From Micromonospora sp. R77 (GTDB lineage Bacteria; Actinomycetota; Actinomycetes; Mycobacteriales; Micromonosporaceae), in the NCBI RefSeq assembly GCF_022747945.1, contig NZ_JALDST010000001.1, positions 3,472,001-3,536,000 of the forward strand: a stretch of 64,000 nt of DNA. Direction: 5' to 3'. Shown here in pieces: positions 633 to 11,060 of this stretch. Both the position numbers and the translations under genes were made by a program. The notes under the pieces were generated by a model, which ran no database searches, was not told the origin of the DNA, and was given only the letters and a program-made list of their open reading frames with translations. The first letter of the stretch is position 1. Every line of letters starts with the position of its first letter.

Positions 633-1316
633 TTACCGGTAGGTGGCGGTGGCGAGGTCACCGACGGCGGCGTCGACCGCGGCGGTGATGTCGCGTACCT
701 GCCGGTGGTGCTGCGCGGCAATGGTGCGTAGCTGCGCGGTGAGGGTGGCGATGTCGTCGGCGAGGTACAGGTGGTTGGTCAGGCCGAGGGTCGCGACGAG
801 GCCGCCGAGGGCGGCGGTGTGGTTGTCGGGCTGGTCACGGCCGGCGGCGATGTAGTGCAACCGGGCGCGGGCGACGACCGGCCACTTGAGGTCCGTGGGC
901 AGGTAGCGGTCGGTGCGGGCGAGCCCTCCCAGGCGGCGACGCACGTCGTGGCGCAGGATCCCGCCGGCGTGCAGGCCGGCGCGGGTGCGGTCGTACAGGT
1001 CGTCGGCGAACCCGCGCAGCCACCTCCGCAGCGGCGGGGTCGGGTGGGCGTAGCGGATGGAGGCCAGGGCGGTGTCGGCGATCAAGTCCCCGACCGGGCG
1101 GTCCAGGTGCAGCCACAGCCGCTGCTCCTCGCCCGATTGGGTGTCGTCCGTGGTGTCGAGACCGATCCGCCCGGCGAGAAAGAGGTCGATGAGCACCGCA
1201 CCCGCCAGGCCGAGTGCGAGGGCCTGGCGGTGGATGTGTGGCTGGCCGGTGTCGTCGTCGTGACCGAGCAGGAACAACTCGTCCCGCAACGGCAGCTGGG
1301 GGATGGAGGAGGCCAT
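633..1316 (-). CDS. GPP34/GOLPH3-family protein
   Basis: A 227-residue protein that opens with SIPQLPLRDELFLLGHDDDTG and contains LALGLAGAVLIDLFLAGRI, the typical start of the GPP34 (GOLPH3/Vps74-like) family, which is abundant in actinomycetes. In eukaryotes the family binds phosphatidylinositol-4-phosphate on Golgi membranes; the bacterial role is not established. The middle is Arg-rich and helical, with no signal peptide or membrane segment. The ATG at 1316 is 14 bases after the stop of the amidase gene, so the two are probably co-transcribed. Family assignment is confident, function is not. Confidence 0.8.
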   Translation of the reverse strand: MASSIPQLPLRDELFLLGHDDDTGQPHIHRQALALGLAGAVLIDLFLAGRIGLDTTDDTQSGEEQRLWLHLDRPVGDLIADTALASIRYAHPTPPLRRWLRGFADDLYDRTRAGLHAGGILRHDVRRRLGGLARTDRYLPTDLKWPVVARARLHYIAAGRDQPDNHTAALGGLVATLGLTNHLYLADDIATLTAQLRTIAAQHHRQVRDITAAVDAAVGDLATATYR

Positions 1317-1330
1317 GTGGATCCCGCCCT

Positions 1331-2335
1331 CTACCTCGGCCCGTCGGTGTGCTGCCGGAAGCGGGCGTGCACCCCGTCGTAGGCGGCTTGCGGCTGCGGA
1401 AGCAGTACCTTGTCGACGGCGGCGAGGAGTGTGTAGTTCGGGTCGCAGACGTTGCCGATCGGCGCCCGTCCCGCCTGTGACACCAGCTGGTAGGCGTCGA
1501 GCTGCTCCAGGCCGGTGAGGTCTACCACCCAGCCGACCAGGTCGCGGTGCGCAATCCGGTACGCGTCTTCAAGGGGACGGGCGCAGCCGACCGACATGAT
1601 CGACGTGTCGGTCTCCAGGCGGGGCCACACCGTCGGGACGCCTTTGATGACCTCGATGATCAGGGTGGTGGTTGTGGCGATCTCCACCCCGACGCCACAG
1701 GCCTCACCCTCGCCCTGGCAGGCGTGGCCGTCGCCGAGGGCGAGCATCGCCCCGTGCACGTTCACCCCCAGGTACAGGGTGGTACCGGCGCGCAGCTCCG
1801 GGGTGTCGAGGTTCCCGCCATGGCTGTCGGGCACGATTGTCGAACGCGACTCGAACCCGCCCGGCGCCACCCCGATGGTGCCGATCATCGGGTCCAGCGG
1901 CAGGTCGACCGTGTGGTCGCTGTCGGTGGCGTGGAAGCGGACCGTGCCGGCCTGCCGGTCGATGTCGTACACCCACACCCGCTCCTCGAGAGGCGGCTGC
2001 AGGGTCGCCGTATGCGAGGTGGAGGTCAGTGCCCCGAAGTGCGGGAACGTCGAGGAGACTCCCCAGTCGCGGGCCGGAACGATCGAGGCGAGGTGGACGG
2101 CGAGGGTGTCGCCTGGCACTGCGTCCTCGACGAAGAACGGCCCGGACACGGGGTTCAGGTACGGCATGCGGCACACCTGCGACGGCAGGTCCGCCGGGCC
2201 GCGGACGAGGCCGCCGAAGCAGTCCTCGGTGTGCACCTGCAGGGTGTCACCGGAGCGGATGTGGGCCACCGGCATCCGCCCGCCGAAGGTGTAGGCCAGC
2301 TCGTCGCGGGCGGGCCGGTAGGTGATCGTGTCCAT
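1331..2335 (-). CDS. Acetamidase/formamidase family amidohydrolase
   Basis: A 334-residue protein beginning MDTITYRPARDELAYTFGGR with the family features RSGDTLQVHTEDCFGG near the N-terminus, GPFFVEDAVPGDTLAV, and the MLALGDGHACQGEGEACGVG segment that carries conserved acidic and His residues. FmdA/AmdA enzymes hydrolyse short amides such as formamide or acetamide to ammonia and the acid; the exact substrate here is unknown. The ATG at 2335 lies just after the permease stop. An in-frame GTG at 2344 would overlap that stop (GTGA) and is a credible alternative. The pairing with an amino acid permease suggests uptake followed by deamidation of an amide. Confidence 0.85.
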   Translation of the reverse strand: MDTITYRPARDELAYTFGGRMPVAHIRSGDTLQVHTEDCFGGLVRGPADLPSQVCRMPYLNPVSGPFFVEDAVPGDTLAVHLASIVPARDWGVSSTFPHFGALTSTSHTATLQPPLEERVWVYDIDRQAGTVRFHATDSDHTVDLPLDPMIGTIGVAPGGFESRSTIVPDSHGGNLDTPELRAGTTLYLGVNVHGAMLALGDGHACQGEGEACGVGVEIATTTTLIIEVIKGVPTVWPRLETDTSIMSVGCARPLEDAYRIAHRDLVGWVVDLTGLEQLDAYQLVSQAGRAPIGNVCDPNYTLLAAVDKVLLPQPQAAYDGVHARFRQHTDGPR

Positions 2336-2340
2336 GGTCG

Positions 2341-3747
2341 TCACACCCGCTCGACGTGGCGGGCCTGCGGCTGCGCGGGCGCCAGACCCGACAGGGCGGG
2401 CCGGCGGCCGGTCAGGTACAGGCCGGCGAGTACGACCATGCCGAGGGCGAGCCAGGCCAGACCGAGACGCTGCGCGGCGATGTTCGCGTTGATCACCACG
2501 TAGGCGAGGATCACGAAGCCGATACCGGGCATCACCAGGTGCGCCCACCAGTTGCCGCTGCGCTGGCGGATGAGGTGGTGCACAACCACGGAGACGTGCA
2601 GGACCAGGAACGCGACCATCGCCCCGAAATTGATCAGCGACGACAGCAGCGTGATCCCGTCCGCCCGGGTGGCCATGTACAGGCCCAGCGCGAGGGACAC
2701 GACGCCGGTGAGCAGGGTCGCGTTGATCGGCACGTTGCGGCGGATCGACACCTTCGCCAGGAAGCCGGGCAGTTGCCGGTCCCGGGCCATCGCGTACAGC
2801 AGCCGGGACGTGGCGACCTGAGCGACCATCGAGTTCGGCAGGCCCCACGCGATCGCGGTCGCGACCGCGCACAACGTCGCCAGCCAGCCTCCGCCAGCCA
2901 CCTGCGCGGCATCGTAGAAGGCGGTGCCGTTCGGATCCCCGTCACTGAGCAGCGAGGCCGGCTCGGGGACGAGCATCGCGGCCAGCCACGTCTGTGCGAT
3001 GAACAGCACACCGGCCAGGACGAGGACGGCGGCCATCGCCCGGCCGATCTGCCGAGAGCCGCCCTTGGTTTCTTCGGCCAGCATGCTGATCCCGTCGAAG
3101 CCGAGGAAGGACAGCACCGCGATCGACACCGCTCCCGCTACCAGGGACCAGGTGAAGGTGTCGGCGTTGTAGAACGCCTCCCAGCTGAACCGGCCCCTGC
3201 CCGAGGCGAGGGCCCAGCCGGCGACGGCGAGGAAGATCGCCAAGACGATCAGCTCGCCGACGAGCATCACCCGGGTCACCATCGCGGTCATCCGGATCCC
3301 CACCGAGTTAACCATCGTGTTGACCGCGACGAACCCGAGCAACCACAGCCACACTGGCACGGCCGGCACGGTCGAGTGCATCGCTACCGACGCCACCAGG
3401 TACAGCAGGCCCGGTACGAGGACGTAGTCGAGCAGGATCACCCAGCCGGCCAGGAAACCGACCGGCGCGCTGATGCCCCGGCCGGCGTAGTTGTAGACGC
3501 TGCCCGACATGGGGAAAGCCTTCACCATCTGCGCGTACGAGAACGCGGTGAACACCAGCGCGACCACACCGACCGTGTACGCCAGAGCCACCATCCCGCC
3601 CGAGCCGGCGTAAACGCTGCCGAAGATCGCCATCGGCGCGATCGGCACCATGTACACCAGGCCGTAGGCCAAGAGGTCCCGGAACCGCAGCCTCCGAGCC
3701 AACTCCTGGCGATAGCCGTAACGAGCCAAGTCGTTCTGTTCAAACAT
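2341..3747 (-). CDS. APC-superfamily amino acid/amine permease
   Basis: A 468-residue membrane protein with about twelve hydrophobic segments. It starts MFEQNDLARYGYRQELARRL, then MAIFGSVYAGSGGMVALAY in TM1-2, an FPMSGSVYNYAGRGISAPVGF segment, and SFLGFDGISMLAEETKGG, all typical of the APC family. It should import an amino acid or amine across the cytoplasmic membrane. The ATG at 3747 is preceded at the right distance by GGAGGAGGG, which decides the start over a longer reading to 3984. It is first in a leftward operon with the amidase and the GPP34 and GNAT genes, and is divergent from the radical SAM operon across a 287-base region holding an inverted repeat. Confidence 0.88.
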   Translation of the reverse strand: MFEQNDLARYGYRQELARRLRFRDLLAYGLVYMVPIAPMAIFGSVYAGSGGMVALAYTVGVVALVFTAFSYAQMVKAFPMSGSVYNYAGRGISAPVGFLAGWVILLDYVLVPGLLYLVASVAMHSTVPAVPVWLWLLGFVAVNTMVNSVGIRMTAMVTRVMLVGELIVLAIFLAVAGWALASGRGRFSWEAFYNADTFTWSLVAGAVSIAVLSFLGFDGISMLAEETKGGSRQIGRAMAAVLVLAGVLFIAQTWLAAMLVPEPASLLSDGDPNGTAFYDAAQVAGGGWLATLCAVATAIAWGLPNSMVAQVATSRLLYAMARDRQLPGFLAKVSIRRNVPINATLLTGVVSLALGLYMATRADGITLLSSLINFGAMVAFLVLHVSVVVHHLIRQRSGNWWAHLVMPGIGFVILAYVVINANIAAQRLGLAWLALGMVVLAGLYLTGRRPALSGLAPAQPQARHVERV

Positions 3748-3910
3748 TCGACGCCCTCCTCCTGCATCGGCACTTGGATGAGGACGTATGCGGAGGATTG
3801 CCTCTCGTAACTCACACGCCCTACGGGTTCCTGCACACCGGTGATCCGTTCTGCACCCCCGGGCAGTGCAGGACGAATGAACGATTTCGTGATCACGGCA
3901 GGCGGGACAG

Positions 3911-3945
3911 CCCACGGTGAGGGGCCACCGTGGGACCCCACCGTG
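3911..3945. promoter_or_regulatory. Candidate operator: perfect inverted repeat plus third half-site
   Basis: CCCACGGTG (3911-3919) and CACCGTGGG (3926-3934) form a perfect 9-bp inverted repeat with a 6-base spacer. A third CACCGTG follows at 3939-3945. The cluster sits in the divergent region between the permease and the radical SAM operon, with no T-run after it, so an operator is more likely than a terminator. A perfect TTGACA lies downstream at 3978-3983, but the -10 element about 17 bases later is poor. The binding protein is unknown; the XRE-TPR regulator at 12055 is one candidate. Confidence 0.5.
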
Positions 3946-4034
3946 AGGTGTCCCGGTCAACACTCTCAACGCCAGAGTTGACATCGGTATCCGTCGAAAT
4001 GATGTCGGCGGCCGAGCGTGGGGAGGTGGGACCG

Positions 4035-4952
4035 GTGCGTGTGTCAGCGATGACGTCGGACCCGGCGCCGTGGGAGTGGGAGTTCGACTGGCACCTGACG
4101 AACCGCTGCAACTTCTTCTGCGAGTACTGCCATCCGCAGATTCGTTACGTCTTGAACAAGAAGCACCTGAACGAGCCTGACGCCGACCTGGTGGTTCAGC
4201 GTTTCGAGGACCTCGGCCGCACGAGTCTCGTGCACATGTCGGGCGGAGAGCCGTTCCTGTTTCCCGGTTTCGTGGAGCTCTGTGCCGGGCTGACCCGCCG
4301 CAACTGGATCAGCATCAACACCAACCTGGCGTCGCCCGAGCTGGTCACCCGTTTCGCCAACGAGGTGGACCCGACGCGGGTGGCGAAGATCGTGGCAGCC
4401 CTGCACGTACCGGAGCGTGACCGCCTCGGTCTGCCGATGACGGAGTACGCCGAGTCATTCCGGATCCTGCGTGGGGCCGGCTTCGACGTGGTGGCGTTGT
4501 ACGTGCTCTTCCCGCCGCTGCTCCCGCGACTACGCGACGACTTGGCGTCGCTGGCGGCTCTCGGAGTGGATCCGCTGCGGGCCAAGGTGTTCAAGGGCGT
4601 CTACGAAGGTCGCCGGTACCCCGAGGCGTACACCGACGCGGAGCGTGCGCTGATCCTGGAGAACTCCGGCGAGTACACCTTCAACCGGCCGTACCTCGAC
4701 GGAATGCTCGCCTTCCGCGGCCAGCCCTGCACGGCGGGGATGACCTCCTTCAAGGTGACCGTGACCGGTGAGGTTCGGCGGTGTGCTTCCGTGCCGACCA
4801 GCTACGGAAACCTCTACGACGGCACCTTCCGGCCCGCCTCCGCACCGGAGCCGTGCCCGGCGAAGCGTGTCCTGGTCCTGTCGCAGTGCATGGCGTACCT
4901 CGTCGATCCGCCGCTGCCCGCATCCGCCGTCCCGGCCCCGCCGCGCCGGTGA
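4035..4952 (+). CDS. Radical SAM enzyme with C-terminal cysteine cluster
   Basis: A 305-residue protein with the radical SAM cluster motif CNFFCEYC (Cys25, Cys29, Cys32), which binds a 4Fe-4S cluster and AdoMet, and GGEP at 70-73. Four further cysteines at 232, 250, 274 and 285, around TGEVRRCASVPTSYGNLYDG, resemble a SPASM/Twitch-type auxiliary cluster region. The enzyme should cleave AdoMet to a 5'-deoxyadenosyl radical; its substrate is unknown. GTG 4035 is chosen because GGGAGG at 4021-4026 is well spaced; ATG 4050 and ATGs at 3999 and 4002 are alternatives. It is first in an operon and lies 17 bases before an AdoMet synthetase gene. Confidence 0.85.
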   Translation: MRVSAMTSDPAPWEWEFDWHLTNRCNFFCEYCHPQIRYVLNKKHLNEPDADLVVQRFEDLGRTSLVHMSGGEPFLFPGFVELCAGLTRRNWISINTNLASPELVTRFANEVDPTRVAKIVAALHVPERDRLGLPMTEYAESFRILRGAGFDVVALYVLFPPLLPRLRDDLASLAALGVDPLRAKVFKGVYEGRRYPEAYTDAERALILENSGEYTFNRPYLDGMLAFRGQPCTAGMTSFKVTVTGEVRRCASVPTSYGNLYDGTFRPASAPEPCPAKRVLVLSQCMAYLVDPPLPASAVPAPPRR

Positions 4953-4969
4953 GGAGAGGAGAAAGCGCC

Positions 4970-6196
4970 ATGCAGGTCATCACCAGCCTCGGGGCGATAC
5001 ACCCCGACCGGGCACCGTTCGATGTCGCGGAGCGCAAGGGCATCGGCCACCCTGACAGCCTCGCGGACCTGGTCGCCGACAGCTTCTCCCGCCGCTACTC
5101 CGCAACCTGCCAGGAGCGCTTCGGTGCTGTACCGAACCATTGGGTCGACAAGGTGACGCTGGTGGGCGCGGCCGCCGACGTCCGCTTCGGTGGGTACGAC
5201 ATCCGCAAGCCGGTCGACTGCTACCTCTTCGGCAAGGTCACGGAGCGGATCGACGGCAACGAGGTGTCCATCGCCAAACTATTCGACGACACGGTCCGCG
5301 CTGTTCTCACCAGCACGTTGGACGACCCGGCAATCCTTGGGCACCTGCGCATACACGTGAACAACACCGCCGGCACCGGGGTCGATCACGACAGGGAGTT
5401 CTACCAGCCTCGGACGGCTGCCGGGATCACGAAGGTGCTCGCCAGTGAATCCGTCGCCAACGACACCGTCGTGTGCGCCGGGACGAGCCTTCGTGGCATC
5501 GCGGCGCGGACGGCGGTCCGACTGGAGACGCTGCTGACCGGCGCCACCTTCCGCACCCGCTACCAGACCGGCACCGACGTCAAGGTCATGGTGGTCCGCG
5601 ACCGTGGCCAACTGGACGTGACCGCGGCAGTGCCCTTCCATCCCGCCAACGTTCACGGCTGGTCGGAGTATCGGACGGCGCTTGACGCCATCCGCGACGA
5701 GATCGAGGGTGAGCTCAAGCGGGTGCTCGACGAGACACCGACGGCAACTGGGGCACGGCTGTCGCTGAACACCAAGGACGTGCCCGGTCGTGGCTACCTC
5801 GCACCCTTCGGCACCTCACTGGGCAAGGGAGACTGTGGCGCCGTCGGACGGGGCAACCGGTACAACGGGGCGATCGAGCCCCTTCGTCCGGCGAGCGGCG
5901 AGGCGCCCGCAGGCAAGAACCCGCTTCACCACGTCGGGAAGATCTACACGGCCGTAGCCGATGAACTGGCACGACGCATCATGGCCGAGCTCGGGACGTA
6001 CGCCGAGGTGCTCATCGCGGCACGCAACGGCGGCCAGTTGGACGATCCGGCGTACGTGCTCATCCGATCCGAGGCGCCCATCGGGGTCGCCGGCGAGGCG
6101 CTGGCCCGGGCAACGATGCGGACGGCGCCGGGATACATCCAGCGGTTCCTGAAGATCGACCCGGTGAGCCGCTTCCGCGAGCAGGAGCCGTGCTGA
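4970..6196 (+). CDS. Archaeal-type S-adenosylmethionine synthetase
   Basis: A 408-residue protein matching the archaeal methionine adenosyltransferase family rather than bacterial MetK: FDVAERKGIGHPDSLAD at the N-terminus (GIGHPD at 24-29), GTDVKVMVVRDRG in the middle, and GAVGRGNRYNGAIEPLRP followed by GKNPLHHVGKIYTAVADELA. It makes AdoMet from methionine and ATP. Actinobacteria normally rely on bacterial-type MetK, so this looks like a second, horizontally acquired and pathway-dedicated enzyme. It sits between a radical SAM gene and two methyltransferase genes that all consume AdoMet. GAGGAGAGGAG precedes the ATG, and the stop overlaps the next ATG (TGATG). Confidence 0.9.
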   Translation: MQVITSLGAIHPDRAPFDVAERKGIGHPDSLADLVADSFSRRYSATCQERFGAVPNHWVDKVTLVGAAADVRFGGYDIRKPVDCYLFGKVTERIDGNEVSIAKLFDDTVRAVLTSTLDDPAILGHLRIHVNNTAGTGVDHDREFYQPRTAAGITKVLASESVANDTVVCAGTSLRGIAARTAVRLETLLTGATFRTRYQTGTDVKVMVVRDRGQLDVTAAVPFHPANVHGWSEYRTALDAIRDEIEGELKRVLDETPTATGARLSLNTKDVPGRGYLAPFGTSLGKGDCGAVGRGNRYNGAIEPLRPASGEAPAGKNPLHHVGKIYTAVADELARRIMAELGTYAEVLIAARNGGQLDDPAYVLIRSEAPIGVAGEALARATMRTAPGYIQRFLKIDPVSRFREQEPC

Positions 6197-6849
6197 TGCC
6201 GGTGACGTTGGACGAGGTTCATCTCCGTCATCTCCGCGAGCTGTGCGCCCGCCCGGCCATGATCGACGACGAGGGCCTCCGCCTCGGAGGCACGTACGTG
6301 ATGTTCTTCGCCGAGTCCGCCCTGATGGCTGAGCACGCCGCCGCGCTACTCGGAGATCAACACGGAGCGCACGTGCTGGAGATCGGTCTTGGCCTGGGCG
6401 TCTTCGCCCAGCAGATCGCACCGCTGCGACCCGCCAGTTACACCGCCGTCGAACCCCATCCGGCGGTCGTGGACCTGGTCGCGCTGAGAATCCGCGAGCA
6501 CCTGCCCTGTCCCGTCATGGTTGTCGTCGAACCATGGCAGGTGCTCGATCTTGAGCCGGAGAGCATCGACGCGATCATGTACGACACCTGGCCGCCAGAC
6601 GGGCACGCCGACGCCGATTTCACCAGCTTCGTGGAACGGATAGCGATCCCTGTCCTGCGGCCCGGAGGTCGCTTCAGCTTCTTCCACAGCGGCACAGAGT
6701 TGCCCGAAGCGCGCGTCGAAGTGCTGGACCACTTCTTCCCGGGCTGGAGCGCAACGAAGGTGACCATCCCTGCGAATCAACTGCCGAGCGGCTGGACGAA
6801 GCCGACGGGTGACTTCCTCGTGCCGTGCGCCCGGAAAGGGGTCCAATGA
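6196..6849 (+). CDS. AdoMet-dependent methyltransferase, guanidinoacetate/RMT2-like
   Basis: A 217-residue class I methyltransferase. HVLEIGLGLGVFAQQ (motif I, about residues 59-73) binds AdoMet. The segment SIDAIMYDTWPPD, with YDTWPPD at about 129-135, followed by LRPGGRFSFFHSG, is strongly reminiscent of guanidinoacetate N-methyltransferase and arginine N-methyltransferase RMT2, whose YDTYP motif lies next to the acceptor guanidino group. I infer a small guanidino or amino acid acceptor; this is not proven. The ATG overlaps the TGA of the AdoMet synthetase gene; a GTG at 6190 is an alternative. The 3' end overlaps the next start (ATGA), so translational coupling is likely. Confidence 0.78.
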   Translation: MPVTLDEVHLRHLRELCARPAMIDDEGLRLGGTYVMFFAESALMAEHAAALLGDQHGAHVLEIGLGLGVFAQQIAPLRPASYTAVEPHPAVVDLVALRIREHLPCPVMVVVEPWQVLDLEPESIDAIMYDTWPPDGHADADFTSFVERIAIPVLRPGGRFSFFHSGTELPEARVEVLDHFFPGWSATKVTIPANQLPSGWTKPTGDFLVPCARKGVQ

Positions 6850-7574
6850 TGCGAGCGACCGGCGAAGACCTCCGGCACCGCTACCGTCAGGACGGCTACC
6901 TCGCCATCGAGGGATTCCTGGAGCGCGAGACGTTGTCCCAGTTGCGCGTCGCCGCCGACCTGGCATTCGAGCAGATCATCGGCCAGACCGTGTCCCTGCG
7001 GACGGCGCATCCTCGCCTCACCTGGTGGCGCCTGCCGGATGGCCGACCGTACGTCTTCAAGATCAAACCTGTCGTCGATCTCGCACCGGCCTTCGCGGGC
7101 ATGGCGGCGAGCGAGGATATCGGATTCCTCGCCTCGTCGATGCTCTCCGCCAAGGCGACACTGATGGAGGACAAGGTCACCTACAAGGCGGCACTCGCCG
7201 ACCCCGCCGATTGGGCCGAACTGCCAGTTCTCGGCGAGGACGTCCGCAAACACTCCGACGCCTCGTACTTCGCGGCGCGCGGCTACGACCGAGTGATCAC
7301 GGTGGCGCTGTGTCTCGACGACTGCCCCGCAGCCGCAGGGGCGCTGCAGGTCTGGCCCGGCAGTCACCGACGCCCTGTGCGACACGAGCCGACACCAAAC
7401 CAGGGGCCGGTCGTCCCGGACGATGACGCGCCCGACGAGCAGGCGGTGACGCTGGAGGCATCAGCGGGATCACTGCTGGCCTGGGATGCCGCGCTCGTGC
7501 ACGCCAGCGGGCCGAACAGCACCGACAGACCGCGGCGACTGCTGGTTCTCGGTTACTCGGCGAGCGGCTCATGA
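6846..7574 (+). CDS. PhyH-family Fe(II)/2-oxoglutarate dioxygenase
   Basis: A 242-residue protein of the phytanoyl-CoA dioxygenase family. The iron ligands are visible as His136-Ser-Asp138 (RKHSDASYF) and a distal His at about 219 (ALVHASGPN), with Arg230/231 placed to bind 2-oxoglutarate. The preceding GALQVWPGSH segment is a family hallmark. Such enzymes hydroxylate or otherwise oxidise amino acids and natural-product intermediates. ATG 6846 overlaps the upstream stop (ATGA); ATG 6849 directly follows. The 3' end again overlaps the next start (ATGA). Confidence 0.87.
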   Translation: MMRATGEDLRHRYRQDGYLAIEGFLERETLSQLRVAADLAFEQIIGQTVSLRTAHPRLTWWRLPDGRPYVFKIKPVVDLAPAFAGMAASEDIGFLASSMLSAKATLMEDKVTYKAALADPADWAELPVLGEDVRKHSDASYFAARGYDRVITVALCLDDCPAAAGALQVWPGSHRRPVRHEPTPNQGPVVPDDDAPDEQAVTLEASAGSLLAWDAALVHASGPNSTDRPRRLLVLGYSASGS

Positions 7575-8275
7575 CCGCCTCACCGAATCCGCCGAACCGA
7601 GCGACCATCAGCGCCTCTCAGCCTCCCAACAGCGGCTTCGACCCGCCGTACACCCAACCGCACCCGTACTTCGGTCAGTGGGGTGAGGACCGCTGGCTCG
7701 TCGAACACCTGGCCGCTCCGGCACAGGGCGTCTTCGTCGATGTCGGGGCAGGCGACGGGGTACGGGGTAGCAACACCCTCTACTTCGAGAGGCGGGGATG
7801 GACGGGGTTGTGCGTCGATCCTGATCCGCGGAACCGCGCGTCCCTGACGAGACGCCACTGCGTGGTACGCCACTGCGCCATCTCTAACACCGCCGGCGAG
7901 CAGACCTTCAGCCAGTACGACGCCAAGCCCTCTTGGTCCGGCCTGGGTGACCGGGGCCAGGGCTACACCGTGGGCACCGCTCCCTGCCTCCGGCTCGGAG
8001 ACCTGCTCCACGACCTCGGAATCGAGCGGATAGACCTCCTGAACATCGATGTCGAAGGCACAGAGCTGGACGTCTGGTCGTCCTTCGACCCGGCCGAGCA
8101 CCGCCCTGGGATCGTTATCATCGAGTACGACTCCCGAGACCCTGACCGCAGTGAGGAGCGGATCATCCGCGCTCTCGGGGCTGATCGCTTCGAGCTCATA
8201 CATCGAACTCCGGCCAACCTCGTCCTGCGAGGGCTGGACCCGGTGAGCCAGCGACGGTGGCGCCATGCGAGATGA
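7571..8275 (+). CDS. FkbM-family methyltransferase
   Basis: A 234-residue protein. FGQWGEDRWLVEHL at the N-terminus, FVDVGAGDGVRGSNT (AdoMet motif, VDVGAGDG at 56-63), the acidic ERRGWTGLCVDPDP loop and IDLLNIDVEGTELDVW mark the FkbM family, which usually O-methylates sugars, polyketides or other small molecules. The first 35 residues are Pro/Asn-rich and may be a linker. The ATG overlaps the stop of the dioxygenase gene and the 3' end overlaps the ATP-grasp-like gene by 11 bases. This is the third AdoMet user in the operon. Confidence 0.87.
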   Translation: MTASPNPPNRATISASQPPNSGFDPPYTQPHPYFGQWGEDRWLVEHLAAPAQGVFVDVGAGDGVRGSNTLYFERRGWTGLCVDPDPRNRASLTRRHCVVRHCAISNTAGEQTFSQYDAKPSWSGLGDRGQGYTVGTAPCLRLGDLLHDLGIERIDLLNIDVEGTELDVWSSFDPAEHRPGIVIIEYDSRDPDRSEERIIRALGADRFELIHRTPANLVLRGLDPVSQRRWRHAR

Positions 8276-9647
8276 TTCTCTCCTCGAAGCGCTCGCCACC
8301 GCGATCCAGCCAAAGGTGACCGGTGAGAGGGCGGTGGTCTTCTGCTCCCACAGCGCGGACGAGCCTCACTGGCGAAATCTGCTGGCGGCTGCGGGCGCGG
8401 CCGACGTCCTGGTCCTGGCCTTCGACGGCAACCTCCTCGCCTCCTTGCCGAGCCCGCCCGGCACCCGCAGCGCAGCCCAACTGCTCGCGGACCGGCACGC
8501 TCTCCTCGCCACCCTCGCGACGGACTCGCCGCTGAGCGCACTCGTGGATCGTTTCGATCCCGACAGGCGAGCAGCGCTTTTCGTCACCGACCCTCTGGAG
8601 CCGCTGGTGACAGGCAGCCGGCCGCTCATCGGCGCCAAGCACCCGAGCTGGAGCCTCTTCGAACACAAGAGCGTGGTGGATGTGCTGTGGGACTCCATCG
8701 GCCTGCCGCGTGCGGAATCAGTGGTGTACGACGAGCCAGCATCGCTGTGGCAGCCTGTCAGCCCGCCGGGGACCGAAATCGTCACCGCAAGGCAGACGTG
8801 CGGGGCCGAGCCCTCGGCCGGCGGTGGGGACATCCAATGGTCGAGCGCGGGCATGCCCAGTCGGCGGGCGGAGTCGACAGAGCGACGGCGGATCCGCGCC
8901 ATGCCGATGCTCCCCGGCGTGCCCTGCCGCCTGCACGGATTGGTGCTCGTCGAGTCGACTGTCGCATTCACCCCACTGGAGCTTCTCGTACCGCGGCGGC
9001 CCGCCGACGGGACCTTCCTCTGCGCGGGCACCGCACCCATGCCCGTGGCCCGACAGCGAGCCCTGATCGAGCTGACCCGGTGGATGGGCGCGGCCCTGCG
9101 CCGCCGGCTGGGCTACCGCGGCGGATTCTCGGTCGACGGAATCCTCACCCAGAGCGGGTTCCGCCCCACCGACCTCAACACCAGGGTGACCTCGGCCTTC
9201 GAGGCCGCACCGCCACCTCTGCGGGTCGCCGTGCACGCGAGCGCGCTCCTCGCGCGGGAGGGCCTGCGCGGCGTCGACGCGGCCAGGCCCGGGCTTACGG
9301 AGAGCGTGCATCGCGCCCTGAACGACACCACCGACCTCCACCTGCTCGCGATGATCGGGCAACCGGTCCCGTTGGCGAGGCGACACGTTCGCTGGCGCGA
9401 TCGCGGGCTTGAAGAGTGCCGGCCCGACAAGGCGCACGGCTCGGTCGAGGTCATCAACGGACCGCGGGGGACAGCTCTTCGGGCTCAACTCGCGCGGAAG
9501 CACCTGCCCGTGGGCGTCTCGCCGCAGGAGAGCGTCGTGGTAGCTCTCCGAATGGCTGACGAACTCCTCGGCACCGGGATCGGCGACCTTCAACCGCCAT
9601 CTATAGGGAGCGGCGCCGCCCCCACTCAGAGAAGCGGCACCACCTAG
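8265..9647 (+). CDS. ATP-grasp-like ligase, last gene of the operon
   Basis: A 460-residue protein that I assign tentatively to the ATP-grasp fold. HKSVVDVLWDSIGLPRAESVV (about 134-154) looks like the start of the ATP-binding subdomain, a Gly-rich loop lies near 180-189, and GYRGGFSVDGIL followed by FRPTDLNTRVTSAF (DLNTR at 303-307) resembles the metal-binding D...E/D-x-N-x-R motif of carboxylate-amine ligases. Such enzymes activate a carboxylate as acyl phosphate and join it to an amine. An N-terminal pre-ATP-grasp-like region and a C-terminal domain of about 150 residues are unassigned. The substrate is unknown; peptide-bond formation on a modified amino acid is an inference. Confidence 0.62.
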   Translation: MRDDSLLEALATAIQPKVTGERAVVFCSHSADEPHWRNLLAAAGAADVLVLAFDGNLLASLPSPPGTRSAAQLLADRHALLATLATDSPLSALVDRFDPDRRAALFVTDPLEPLVTGSRPLIGAKHPSWSLFEHKSVVDVLWDSIGLPRAESVVYDEPASLWQPVSPPGTEIVTARQTCGAEPSAGGGDIQWSSAGMPSRRAESTERRRIRAMPMLPGVPCRLHGLVLVESTVAFTPLELLVPRRPADGTFLCAGTAPMPVARQRALIELTRWMGAALRRRLGYRGGFSVDGILTQSGFRPTDLNTRVTSAFEAAPPPLRVAVHASALLAREGLRGVDAARPGLTESVHRALNDTTDLHLLAMIGQPVPLARRHVRWRDRGLEECRPDKAHGSVEVINGPRGTALRAQLARKHLPVGVSPQESVVVALRMADELLGTGIGDLQPPSIGSGAAPTQRSGTT

Positions 9648-9650
9648 ACC

Positions 9651-11060
9651 CTACGGGAGCCGGTCGATCGCACTCCTGATCCTCGTGGCAGTGCGGCTCC
9701 GACCGAGCACCTCCAACGACTCGAACAGGGGTAGCCCGACGGTACGGCCGGTCACAGCAACCCGGACCGGCGCCTGAGCCTTACCCAGCTTCAGACCGCG
9801 AGCTGCCCCCAACTCCTCGACCGTGCGCTTGAGCGACTCGGCATCCCATTCCACCTTCTCGAACGCGGTAGCCACCTCGGTGAGTAGCGCCAGGGCCTCC
9901 CCGGTCATGGCCTTCGTCCAAGCAGCCTCGTCGATCGACGGGAACGGCAGGAACAGGAAGTCCACCATGGCGACGATCTCGCTGAGCACCGCGACCCGGG
10001 TCTGCGCCAGGGGCGCGACAGCGGCGAAGGCCACGTCGTCGTAGTCCTCAGCCCGCCACGGGGCGTACTCACCGCGCAGCCACGGCTGACACGCCGAGAT
10101 GAACTCCTCCGTGCTCAACGCGCGGAGGTAGTCGCCGTTGAATGCCCGCAGCTTCTTGACGTCGAAGAACGCCGGCGACGGATTGACGTCGGCCATCCGG
10201 AACTCCGTCACGATGTCGTCCCAGGGGACGATCTCCCGGTCACCGGAGGGGGCCCAGCCGAGCAGCATCAGGTAGTTGCGCATCGCATCGGGCAGGTACC
10301 CCTCGGCACGGAAGTCCTCCAGCGCGACCCGATCCCGGCGCTTGGACAGTTTCTGCCGCTTCTCGTTGACCAGGATCGGCGCGTGGGCCCACACCGGCGG
10401 TTCGTGCCCGAGCGCCACCCACAACAGCTGCTGCTTAGGCGTGTTCGGCAGGTGCTCCTCGGCGCGGATGACATGGGTGATGCCCATGACCATGTCGTCG
10501 ACGACATTCGCGAGCAAGAACACCGGGGAGCCGTCACCACGTGCGATGACGAAATCCTCAATCGTGGCGTTGTCGAACGTGGGCTCGCCGCGCACCAGAT
10601 CCCGCACGACGGTCTGACCCTCGTCCGGTGTCCGGAACCGCACCGCGCTTCCGGGCGCCGCGGCCAGGCCGCGGTCGCGGCAGTAACCGTCGTACCCCTT
10701 GTGTTCGCTGCCGGTTCGCTCCACGACCTGCGTACGCACGCAGTCGCAGTAGTAGGCCTGACCTGCCGCGAGCAGCTTCGCGATGGCGTCGCGGTGGTGC
10801 TGGACATAGGCGGACTGGAACAGGGGGCCCTCGTACTCATCGGGGCCGGCGCCGAGCCAGGCCATGGCGTCGATGATGCCCTGCACCCACTCCGGCTTAC
10901 TACGTTCGGCGTCCGTGTCCTCGATCCGCAGCACCATCGTGCCGCCGGACTGCTTGGCTAGCACCCAGTTGTAGAGCAGAGAGCGGGCGTTACCCACGTG
11001 GAACATGCCTGTCGGTGATGGGGCAAATCGAACGCGCACGGGGGAGTTTGGCGATGCCAT
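9651..11060 (-). CDS. gltX: Glutamyl-tRNA synthetase
   Basis: A 469-residue class I aminoacyl-tRNA synthetase. [17 protein letters not shown] carries the HIGH-type motif (HVGN at 21-24), the Cys105-x-Cys107 and Cys127 positions fit a zinc site, and KLSKR at 237-241 is the KMSKS loop. It charges tRNA with glutamate. The [10 protein letters not shown] signature differs from the GNPHVGLVRT type I associate with the housekeeping GltX of streptomycetes, so this may be a second copy. It converges with the ATP-grasp-like gene with 3 bases between stops. A role in self-protection or Glu-tRNA supply for the cluster is possible but unproven. Confidence 0.9.

Follow-up and report, generated by a model that had tools for sequence, protein, structure and literature searches.

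Why should an actinobacterium that has an ordinary MetK also carry an archaeal-type methionine adenosyltransferase (MAT) within an operon, and what might such an operon make? The question is raised by a 64,000-nucleotide stretch of DNA (the window) from Micromonospora sp. R77 (7.14 Mb genome), in which six plus-strand reading frames, all present, form an operon at 4035–9647. Convergent with it lies gltX2, a second gene for glutamyl-tRNA synthetase (GluRS). Since the operon travels with a GltX2 that is altered at its active site, it probably makes a compound that blocks GluRS, the extra copy protecting the producer. Judging from the sequences, we consider it reasonably likely that GluRS is inhibited by what the operon makes, at its adenylate site or close to it, and that gltX2 is a self-resistant copy of the target. 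The features concerned are as follows.

4035..4952, plus strand: radical S-adenosylmethionine (SAM) enzyme; Radical_SAM PF04055, E 9.6e-12, over cut-off; CxxxCxxC formed by C25, C29 and C32
4970..6196, plus strand: archaeal-type MAT-like enzyme; AdoMet_Synthase PF01941, E 1.3e-65; altered SAM-contact residues
6196..6849, plus strand: class I methyltransferase, distantly like guanidinoacetate methyltransferase (GAMT); Methyltransf_25, 1.1e-5, just below cut-off
6846..7574, plus strand: PhyH-type Fe(II)/2-oxoglutarate dioxygenase; PF05721, E 5.6e-25
7571..8275, plus strand: FkbM-family methyltransferase; PF05050, E 4.5e-15; TIGR01444 over cut-off
8265..9647, plus strand: probable ATP-grasp ligase of no described family; Foldseek match 1gso
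9651..11060, minus strand: gltX2, a further complete glutamyl-tRNA synthetase gene; faces the operon, with 3 bases separating the two stop codons
10989..10991, minus strand: AAC codon for Asn24 of GltX2 (HVGN; Gly in GltX1), the fourth residue of the HIGH signature

A 17-base gap separates the radical SAM and MAT genes. The MAT and methyltransferase genes overlap by 1 base (TGATG), the methyltransferase and PhyH genes by 4 (ATGA), the PhyH and FkbM genes by 4 (ATGA), and the FkbM and ligase genes by 11. Frames and junctions are as given in an earlier note on this DNA, which described an unrecognised biosynthetic operon; the gene set is indeed coherent, and no match to it turned up among clusters in the literature searched. 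The six genes stand, but the boundary drawn around them was incomplete: the note overlooked the second glutamyl-tRNA synthetase, which belongs to the locus as well and supplies the likely target. Contamination was rejected as a source of the operon, which sits in a contig of 7.07 Mb and has congeneric relatives.

Co-occurrence of the operon with a second gltX

In a draw of 300 Micromonosporaceae genomes, MAT matches (E up to 1e-3) were obtained in 25: 16 were of the operon type, 8 were distant MATs only (31–37% identity, in other settings) and one was a weak fragment (G276). The gene order in the 16 operon genomes was radical SAM–MAT–methyltransferase–PhyH–(SDR)–FkbM–ligase, the operon of G144 being cut by a contig end, and in 7 loci a NAD-epimerase-like gene lay between PhyH and FkbM. 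Hosts of the operon were Micromonospora, Actinoplanes, Rhizocola, Phytohabitans, Catellatospora, a groundwater metagenome-assembled genome (MAG) and two genomes of another family (G757 and G722). The comparison of neighbourhoods, suggested in the earlier note as a check, shows that the set did not come together by chance: the order recurs across genera with 45–98% identity from the radical SAM to the FkbM protein (plus a 41% MAT piece in G722). The radical SAM enzyme was the best conserved part (69–97%) and the ligase the least (35–97%). At L145, in G722, the operon appeared to be decaying, with the MAT in two pieces and FkbM shortened; gltX2 was open over its full length there. Among 394 genomes of the class, MATs of the clade described below were found only in the window genome and in three genomes of one other family, and 35 searched genomes of another family yielded just three distant MATs (33–37%).

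The other gltX copy of the window genome, gltX1, lies at C1:1190911 and is 73% identical to gltX2. All 16 Micromonosporaceae operon genomes, the window genome included, have a second gltX (split by contig ends in G289, on a separate contig in G144), and the groundwater MAG with the operon has two gltX genes. No intact second gltX was present in 20 same-genus genomes without a MAT or in the 8 Micromonosporaceae genomes having only distant MATs. We therefore rejected the idea that a second gltX is simply a trait of the lineage. One of the 20 congeners carries a gltX relic of about 450 bases (G003, L107:9194–9642), beside which no operon remnants were found.

The reverse search with the main gltX2 type returned 18 of the 300 genomes, 14 with and 4 without the operon; the operon genomes G042 and G087, whose gltX2 has diverged, fell below its threshold. 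The four operon-less genomes keep a gltX2 with Asn at the HIGH position considered below, and in two of them ligase remnants adjoin it. These orphans look like cases of biosynthesis lost and immunity retained. An ArgRS gene adjoins gltX2 in seven genomes of one lineage (L050–L053, L197, L198 and L200), comprising four operon genomes and three orphans; it sits between the ligase and gltX2 in four operon genomes.

A sister operon, found in Nocardiopsis, Streptomonospora, Actinorugispora and Murinocardiopsis, consists of a MAT (43–49% identical to the window MAT), a sulfatase-superfamily protein and a GluRS-like protein, and is convergent with gltX. MAT matches were obtained in 16 of 120 genomes drawn from this family. 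The 16 sister-operon loci correspond to 12 distinct genomes (G302/G692, G305/G489, G307/G782 and G308/G705 are duplicates); a second gltX adjoins the operon in all 12, and the first 10 genomes checked all have two full-length copies. When gltX was checked in 36 genomes of the family, namely the 16 with a MAT match and 20 with none, two full-length copies were seen in 8 of 9 genomes with the MAT clade, counting the G757 copy that has one stop inside, versus 2 of 27 others. The ninth genome, G735, has only a MAT fragment, and G708 (44% and partial 34% gltX matches) was not counted as having two copies. No recognised SAM-using enzyme was found in the sister operon. In its GluRS-like protein, Arg replaces the HIGH histidine and the KMSKS loop is missing at all 16 loci (12 distinct genomes), so that this protein should not activate glutamate. 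At L038:12111–13508, the gene for it shares about 130 bases with the 3′ end of gltX2, which converges on it, and the last residues of the GluRS-like protein are therefore encoded antisense to GltX2.

With the exception of G757, then, a second intact copy of a housekeeping aminoacyl-tRNA synthetase (aaRS) lies beside the cluster. The operon and gltX2 are very probably linked in function.

The fourth residue of the HIGH signature

In GltX2 the full length, the class I motifs and KLSKRR, the equivalent of KMSKS, are preserved. To follow the origin of the gene we used a GluRS tree of 64 rows, from which two gltX2 copies were left out, that of G757 (L185), interrupted by an in-frame TGA, and the split, Asn-bearing one of G289 (L079); neither is among the 28 Asn rows counted below. 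Some rows were placed after the tree had been seen: L178 and L181 with the housekeeping copies, the orphan L179 with group B1 and the MAG copy L188 with group A1. L180 and L189, both with Gly, were set aside from the housekeeping rows.

In this tree gltX2 occupies four places. One holds the main window type, including the G722 copy, which groups with Micromonosporaceae gltX2 and not with its own family. A second is taken by the pair from G087 and G042, beside their own gltX1, a third by the main Nocardiopsis type and the fourth by a young duplicate in G558/G782. A single column, the fourth residue of HIGH, separates gltX2 from gltX1 in every row: all 31 housekeeping rows and both rows set aside have Gly there, while gltX2 has either Asn (28/28) or Ser (3/3, from two distinct genomes). 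The active site of the extra copy thus departs from that of the housekeeping enzyme. In the young duplicate of G782 this residue is the only difference from the parent within 166 compared N-terminal columns; the G558 duplicate has three further changes within that stretch. The two copies share more changes around columns 178 and 189–194, in a stretch running up to and through the conserved VIR/VVR.

The first 107 columns of the alignment put the three older gltX2 types on one side (SH-aLRT 83, weak), together with a long-branched, Gly-bearing MAG copy, whereas the remaining 360 columns track host lineages. This conflict suggests that the N-terminal active-site segment of gltX2 may have been kept through recombination.

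The archaeal-type MAT and the other operon enzymes

The synthetase is truly of archaeal type, as had been proposed. It scored 222.3 bits against PF01941 (gathering score 27), at the only PF01941 place in the genome, and TIGR01034, the bacterial MetK model, did not pick it; that model found only the ordinary MetK at C1:5092747 (552 bits). Against the equivalog NF003362 the operon MAT reached 236.7 bits, below the cut-off of 481, and it is therefore not filed as a proven methionine adenosyltransferase. The SAM contacts of PfMAT include H30, H59, N61, D141, L142, D198, Y268 and D280, according to the accessible part of PMC8727953. The operon MAT clade keeps H30, D198, Y268 and D280, but H59 is changed to N and N61 to W (PNHWVDK versus LHHNTDQ in PfMAT); the D141/L142 region was not confidently aligned. 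Among the best 120 of 1291 homologues, 109 have NHW, 7 NHS and 1 NHA, with 3 unmatched. Window and sister MATs form one clade (support 100/99), separate from two archaeal enzymes and from other actinobacterial MATs, which keep HHN except for one type with HHW. Compared with the archaeal MATs of known structure (6s81/6s83 and 4l4q), the operon enzyme shares the sequence family, the core motifs and several SAM contacts; it differs in N59, in W61, in a recast loop 136–142 and in a score far under the equivalog cut-off.

The earlier note had seen in this enzyme a supplier of SAM for the pathway. It is probably more than that, given the low equivalog score, the two changed SAM contacts and a sister operon with no recognised SAM user. 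With MetK present in the same genome, the simplest reading is a changed amino-acid substrate and an adenosyl product with a structural role. That this product serves as a building block is a tentative proposal, which may well prove wrong. One archaeal MAT accepts several nucleoside triphosphates, as cited in the accessible part of PMC8727953, and by analogy the base used by the operon MAT may be open too.

The note's other family assignments held for the radical SAM, PhyH and FkbM proteins, with weak support for the GAMT-like methyltransferase and moderate support for the ATP-grasp-like ligase. In the radical SAM enzyme, C25, C29 and C32 and the C-terminal C232, C250, C274 and C285 are invariant in 11 of 11 orthologues compared; the C-terminal four perhaps bind one auxiliary Fe–S cluster. 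The best PDB match of the class I methyltransferase was GAMT (3orh), at a weak E of 2.4e-5. Its E40 and D130, the same in all 10 orthologues compared, align to positions 45 and 134 of GAMT; Glu45 and Asp134 of the rat enzyme are presumably the guanidino-binding residues. The note's hint of a guanidino substrate thus gains some support from the two residues, while the likeness to GAMT by sequence is weak. The likely iron ligands of the PhyH protein, counted from the ATG at 6849, are H135, D137 and H218, which are invariant in 10/10 orthologues.

No Pfam or NCBIfam match was obtained for the last gene of the operon. Its model has a mean pLDDT (predicted local distance difference test score) of 70, the sole Foldseek match below 1e-3 was GAR synthetase (1gso, E 4.2e-5), and structure comparison gave no clear winner apart from this weak ATP-grasp signal. 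None of its 46 homologues has a precomputed Pfam domain, and one is called ATP-grasp by UniRef. We assign it with moderate confidence, from the predicted fold, as ATP-grasp-like. No aaRS-like family match was seen among the six operon genes.

Upstream of the operon, divergent minus-strand genes (window 633–3984) encode an amino-acid permease, an acetamidase/formamidase-family protein and a GPP34 protein. Some Micromonospora loci keep these genes next to the operon and Actinoplanes keeps part of them, and in the other genera seen they are absent from this position.

Archaeal-type MATs were also observed in other clusters. In a third type (L150, L153–L156, L056, L057 and L059), a distant MAT is accompanied by an APH-like kinase, a histidine phosphatase, a glycosyltransferase, a SerRS and a protein that matches AlaRS very weakly. 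Two SerRS copies, sharing about 40% identity in the third-type genomes, occur in 7 of 8 of these and in 1 of 10 other genomes (G704), where the same neighbours lie alongside (L196). A fourth type comprises L146–L149, L152 and L157; L152 contains xylose-isomerase-like, Gfo/Idh oxidoreductase, P-loop, carbamoyltransferase and NUDIX proteins. The MATs of L054 and L151 have W at the N61 position and H at 59, and that of L151 neighbours inositol-1-phosphate synthase, SDR and PHP-domain proteins. At L058, L060 and L061 the MAT lies near an HPr-kinase-like protein, a glycosyltransferase-like protein and a homologue of the CofE-like F420 gamma-glutamyl ligase.

A candidate GluRS inhibitor and its alternatives

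From the operon, the second GluRS, their association and the HIGH and pocket changes, all of them read from sequence, we infer the inhibitor, its target, the resistance and each chemical step as follows. The archaeal-type MAT would link C5′ of ATP to an amino acid or a methionine analogue and so provide an adenosyl building block. This block would be elaborated, perhaps on an amidino or guanidino group, by the radical SAM enzyme, the GAMT-like methyltransferase, the dioxygenase and the FkbM methyltransferase, and the ATP-grasp-like enzyme would attach a further unit to yield a mimic of glutamyl-adenylate (glutamyl-AMP). Such a mimic would inhibit GluRS at or near the adenylate site, and GltX2 would resist it through the change from Gly to Asn (Ser in one lineage) at the fourth HIGH position. 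In class I synthetases, this residue borders the ATP/adenylate phosphate. An adenosyl compound turned into a glutamyl-AMP mimic would fit the target site, the enzyme set and the resistance together.

Several observations weigh against this proposal. In the five solved GluRSs shown, the fourth HIGH residue is Thr, Asn (4g6z), Gly, Gly or Leu; since Asn occurs naturally in a solved GluRS, it is compatible with function, and the change need not signify resistance. N-terminal columns 22, 36, 48, 60 and 65 also differ in most A1, A2 and B1 copies, and the N-terminal segments of these groups cluster together weakly, so the Asn may reflect one event and not three. The G757 operon is apparently intact, yet its gltX2 has an in-frame TGA. 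G735 has a fragment of a clade-type MAT but a single gltX; the MAT there (L135/L049) is broken, with PNHRVDK and about 150 residues, on a short MAG contig where no other operon gene was found. G786 and G523 have two gltX genes without an operon, the extra copy carrying Asn in G786 (a further orphan of the sister type) and Gly in G523. The genomes are related, so that the co-occurrence counts are not independent and come out too high, and no dedicated exporter was identified.

The main rival explanation is that GltX2 is itself biosynthetic, supplying or transferring a glutamyl group in glutamyl-tRNA-dependent tailoring, instead of or besides conferring resistance. There is precedent in SbzA, a self-resistance IleRS copy that is also an isoleucine transferase, and in AcmF, an AlaRS-like alanine transferase (both from the accessible part of PMC12945691), and the degenerate GluRS-like protein of the sister operon points in the same direction. 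GltX2, however, keeps its class I motifs and full length, is convergent and not co-operonic, and persists in four operon-less genomes; moreover, the ATP-grasp-like enzyme could perform the ligation in the window operon. We consider a biosynthetic GltX2 unlikely on this balance.

Less probable still is the view of the earlier note, in which the MAT merely boosts SAM for a pathway that methylates and oxidises a guanidino amino acid and gltX2 would be a hitchhiker. The three SAM users in the operon, the retention of the core MAT motifs with H30, D198, Y268 and D280, and the invariance of the GAMT-like residues (10/10) are all as this view would have them. It sits poorly with the ordinary MetK, with the change of H59 and N61 to N and W in the clade, with the sister operon's want of a recognised SAM user and with the association of gltX2 in two families. 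We give very little weight to the idea that the second GluRS has a part in translation or in tRNA quality under certain conditions, the operon adjoining it for regulatory or positional reasons. GltX2 does look fully functional by its sequence and survives alone in some genomes, and an ArgRS gene adjoins it in one lineage; but none of the 20 congeners without a MAT has an intact second copy, gltX2 was acquired next to this MAT clade on more than one occasion, and the change is focused on the HIGH motif.

Most bacteria cannot do without GluRS. If an inhibitor of it is indeed made, the operon brings along its presumed target, a copy that resists the product and one candidate residue for the resistance, so that target, mechanism and resistance could all be tested directly. 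Archaeal-type MATs in bacteria would gain a role other than in cofactor supply and become a source of enzymes for SAM-like adenosyl compounds. A broader proposal, which we regard as speculative and rather doubtful, is that in actinobacteria these MATs catalyse the first committed step in a class of small clusters, in which amino acids or analogues of them are joined to C5′ of adenosine to build aminoacyl-adenylate mimics, each directed against one particular aaRS and each cluster having its own extra aaRS: GluRS in the window and Nocardiopsis types, SerRS in the third type. The window operon would then lead to the first natural GluRS inhibitor, its MAT acting on a substrate other than methionine.

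Self-resistant aaRS copies in clusters are nothing new. Searches of open-licence PubMed Central papers turned up no case with GluRS as the target, with an enzyme set centred on a MAT or with the two architectures seen here. They gave no match for archaeal-type MATs in actinobacterial clusters or for GluRS self-resistance, which is not proof of absence, and among GluRS inhibitors they yielded no natural one, just an adenylate analogue for laboratory use and a study of computational design. The analogue, glutamyl-sulfamoyl-adenosine (Glu-AMS), is called the best known inhibitor of Escherichia coli GluRS in the accessible part of PMC4393105. Like the proposed operon product it mimics glutamyl-AMP, but it is a stable laboratory compound.

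The nearest natural systems are described in PMC12945691, of which the accessible part is used here. The sbz cluster (altemicidin, SB-203207/208) likewise has an extra aaRS, SbzA, in a natural-product locus, and its product inhibits the cognate aaRS; a predicted SbzA complex has the altemicidin sulfonamide in contact with the fourth residue of HIGH. It differs in that the enzyme is an IleRS and not a GluRS, that SbzA also transfers the amino acid, and that the review makes no use of the term methionine adenosyltransferase. The acm cluster (ascamycin) combines the AlaRS AcmD with AcmF, which lacks ATP-activation residues, and gives an adenosine-type product. It mirrors the sister operon, but its chemistry is alanyl and sulfamate, whereas the window operon has an ATP-grasp-like ligase and no aaRS-like transferase. 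For resistance itself, the closest parallel is IleRS1/IleRS2 and mupirocin (PMC10485003, accessible part), where an altered HIGH motif leads to hyper-resistance in IleRS2: as proposed here, resistance of a class I aaRS is linked to a change in HIGH. In IleRS2 the first and third HIGH residues are swapped and the resistance was measured, whereas in GltX2 the change lies at the fourth residue and is proposed to confer resistance.

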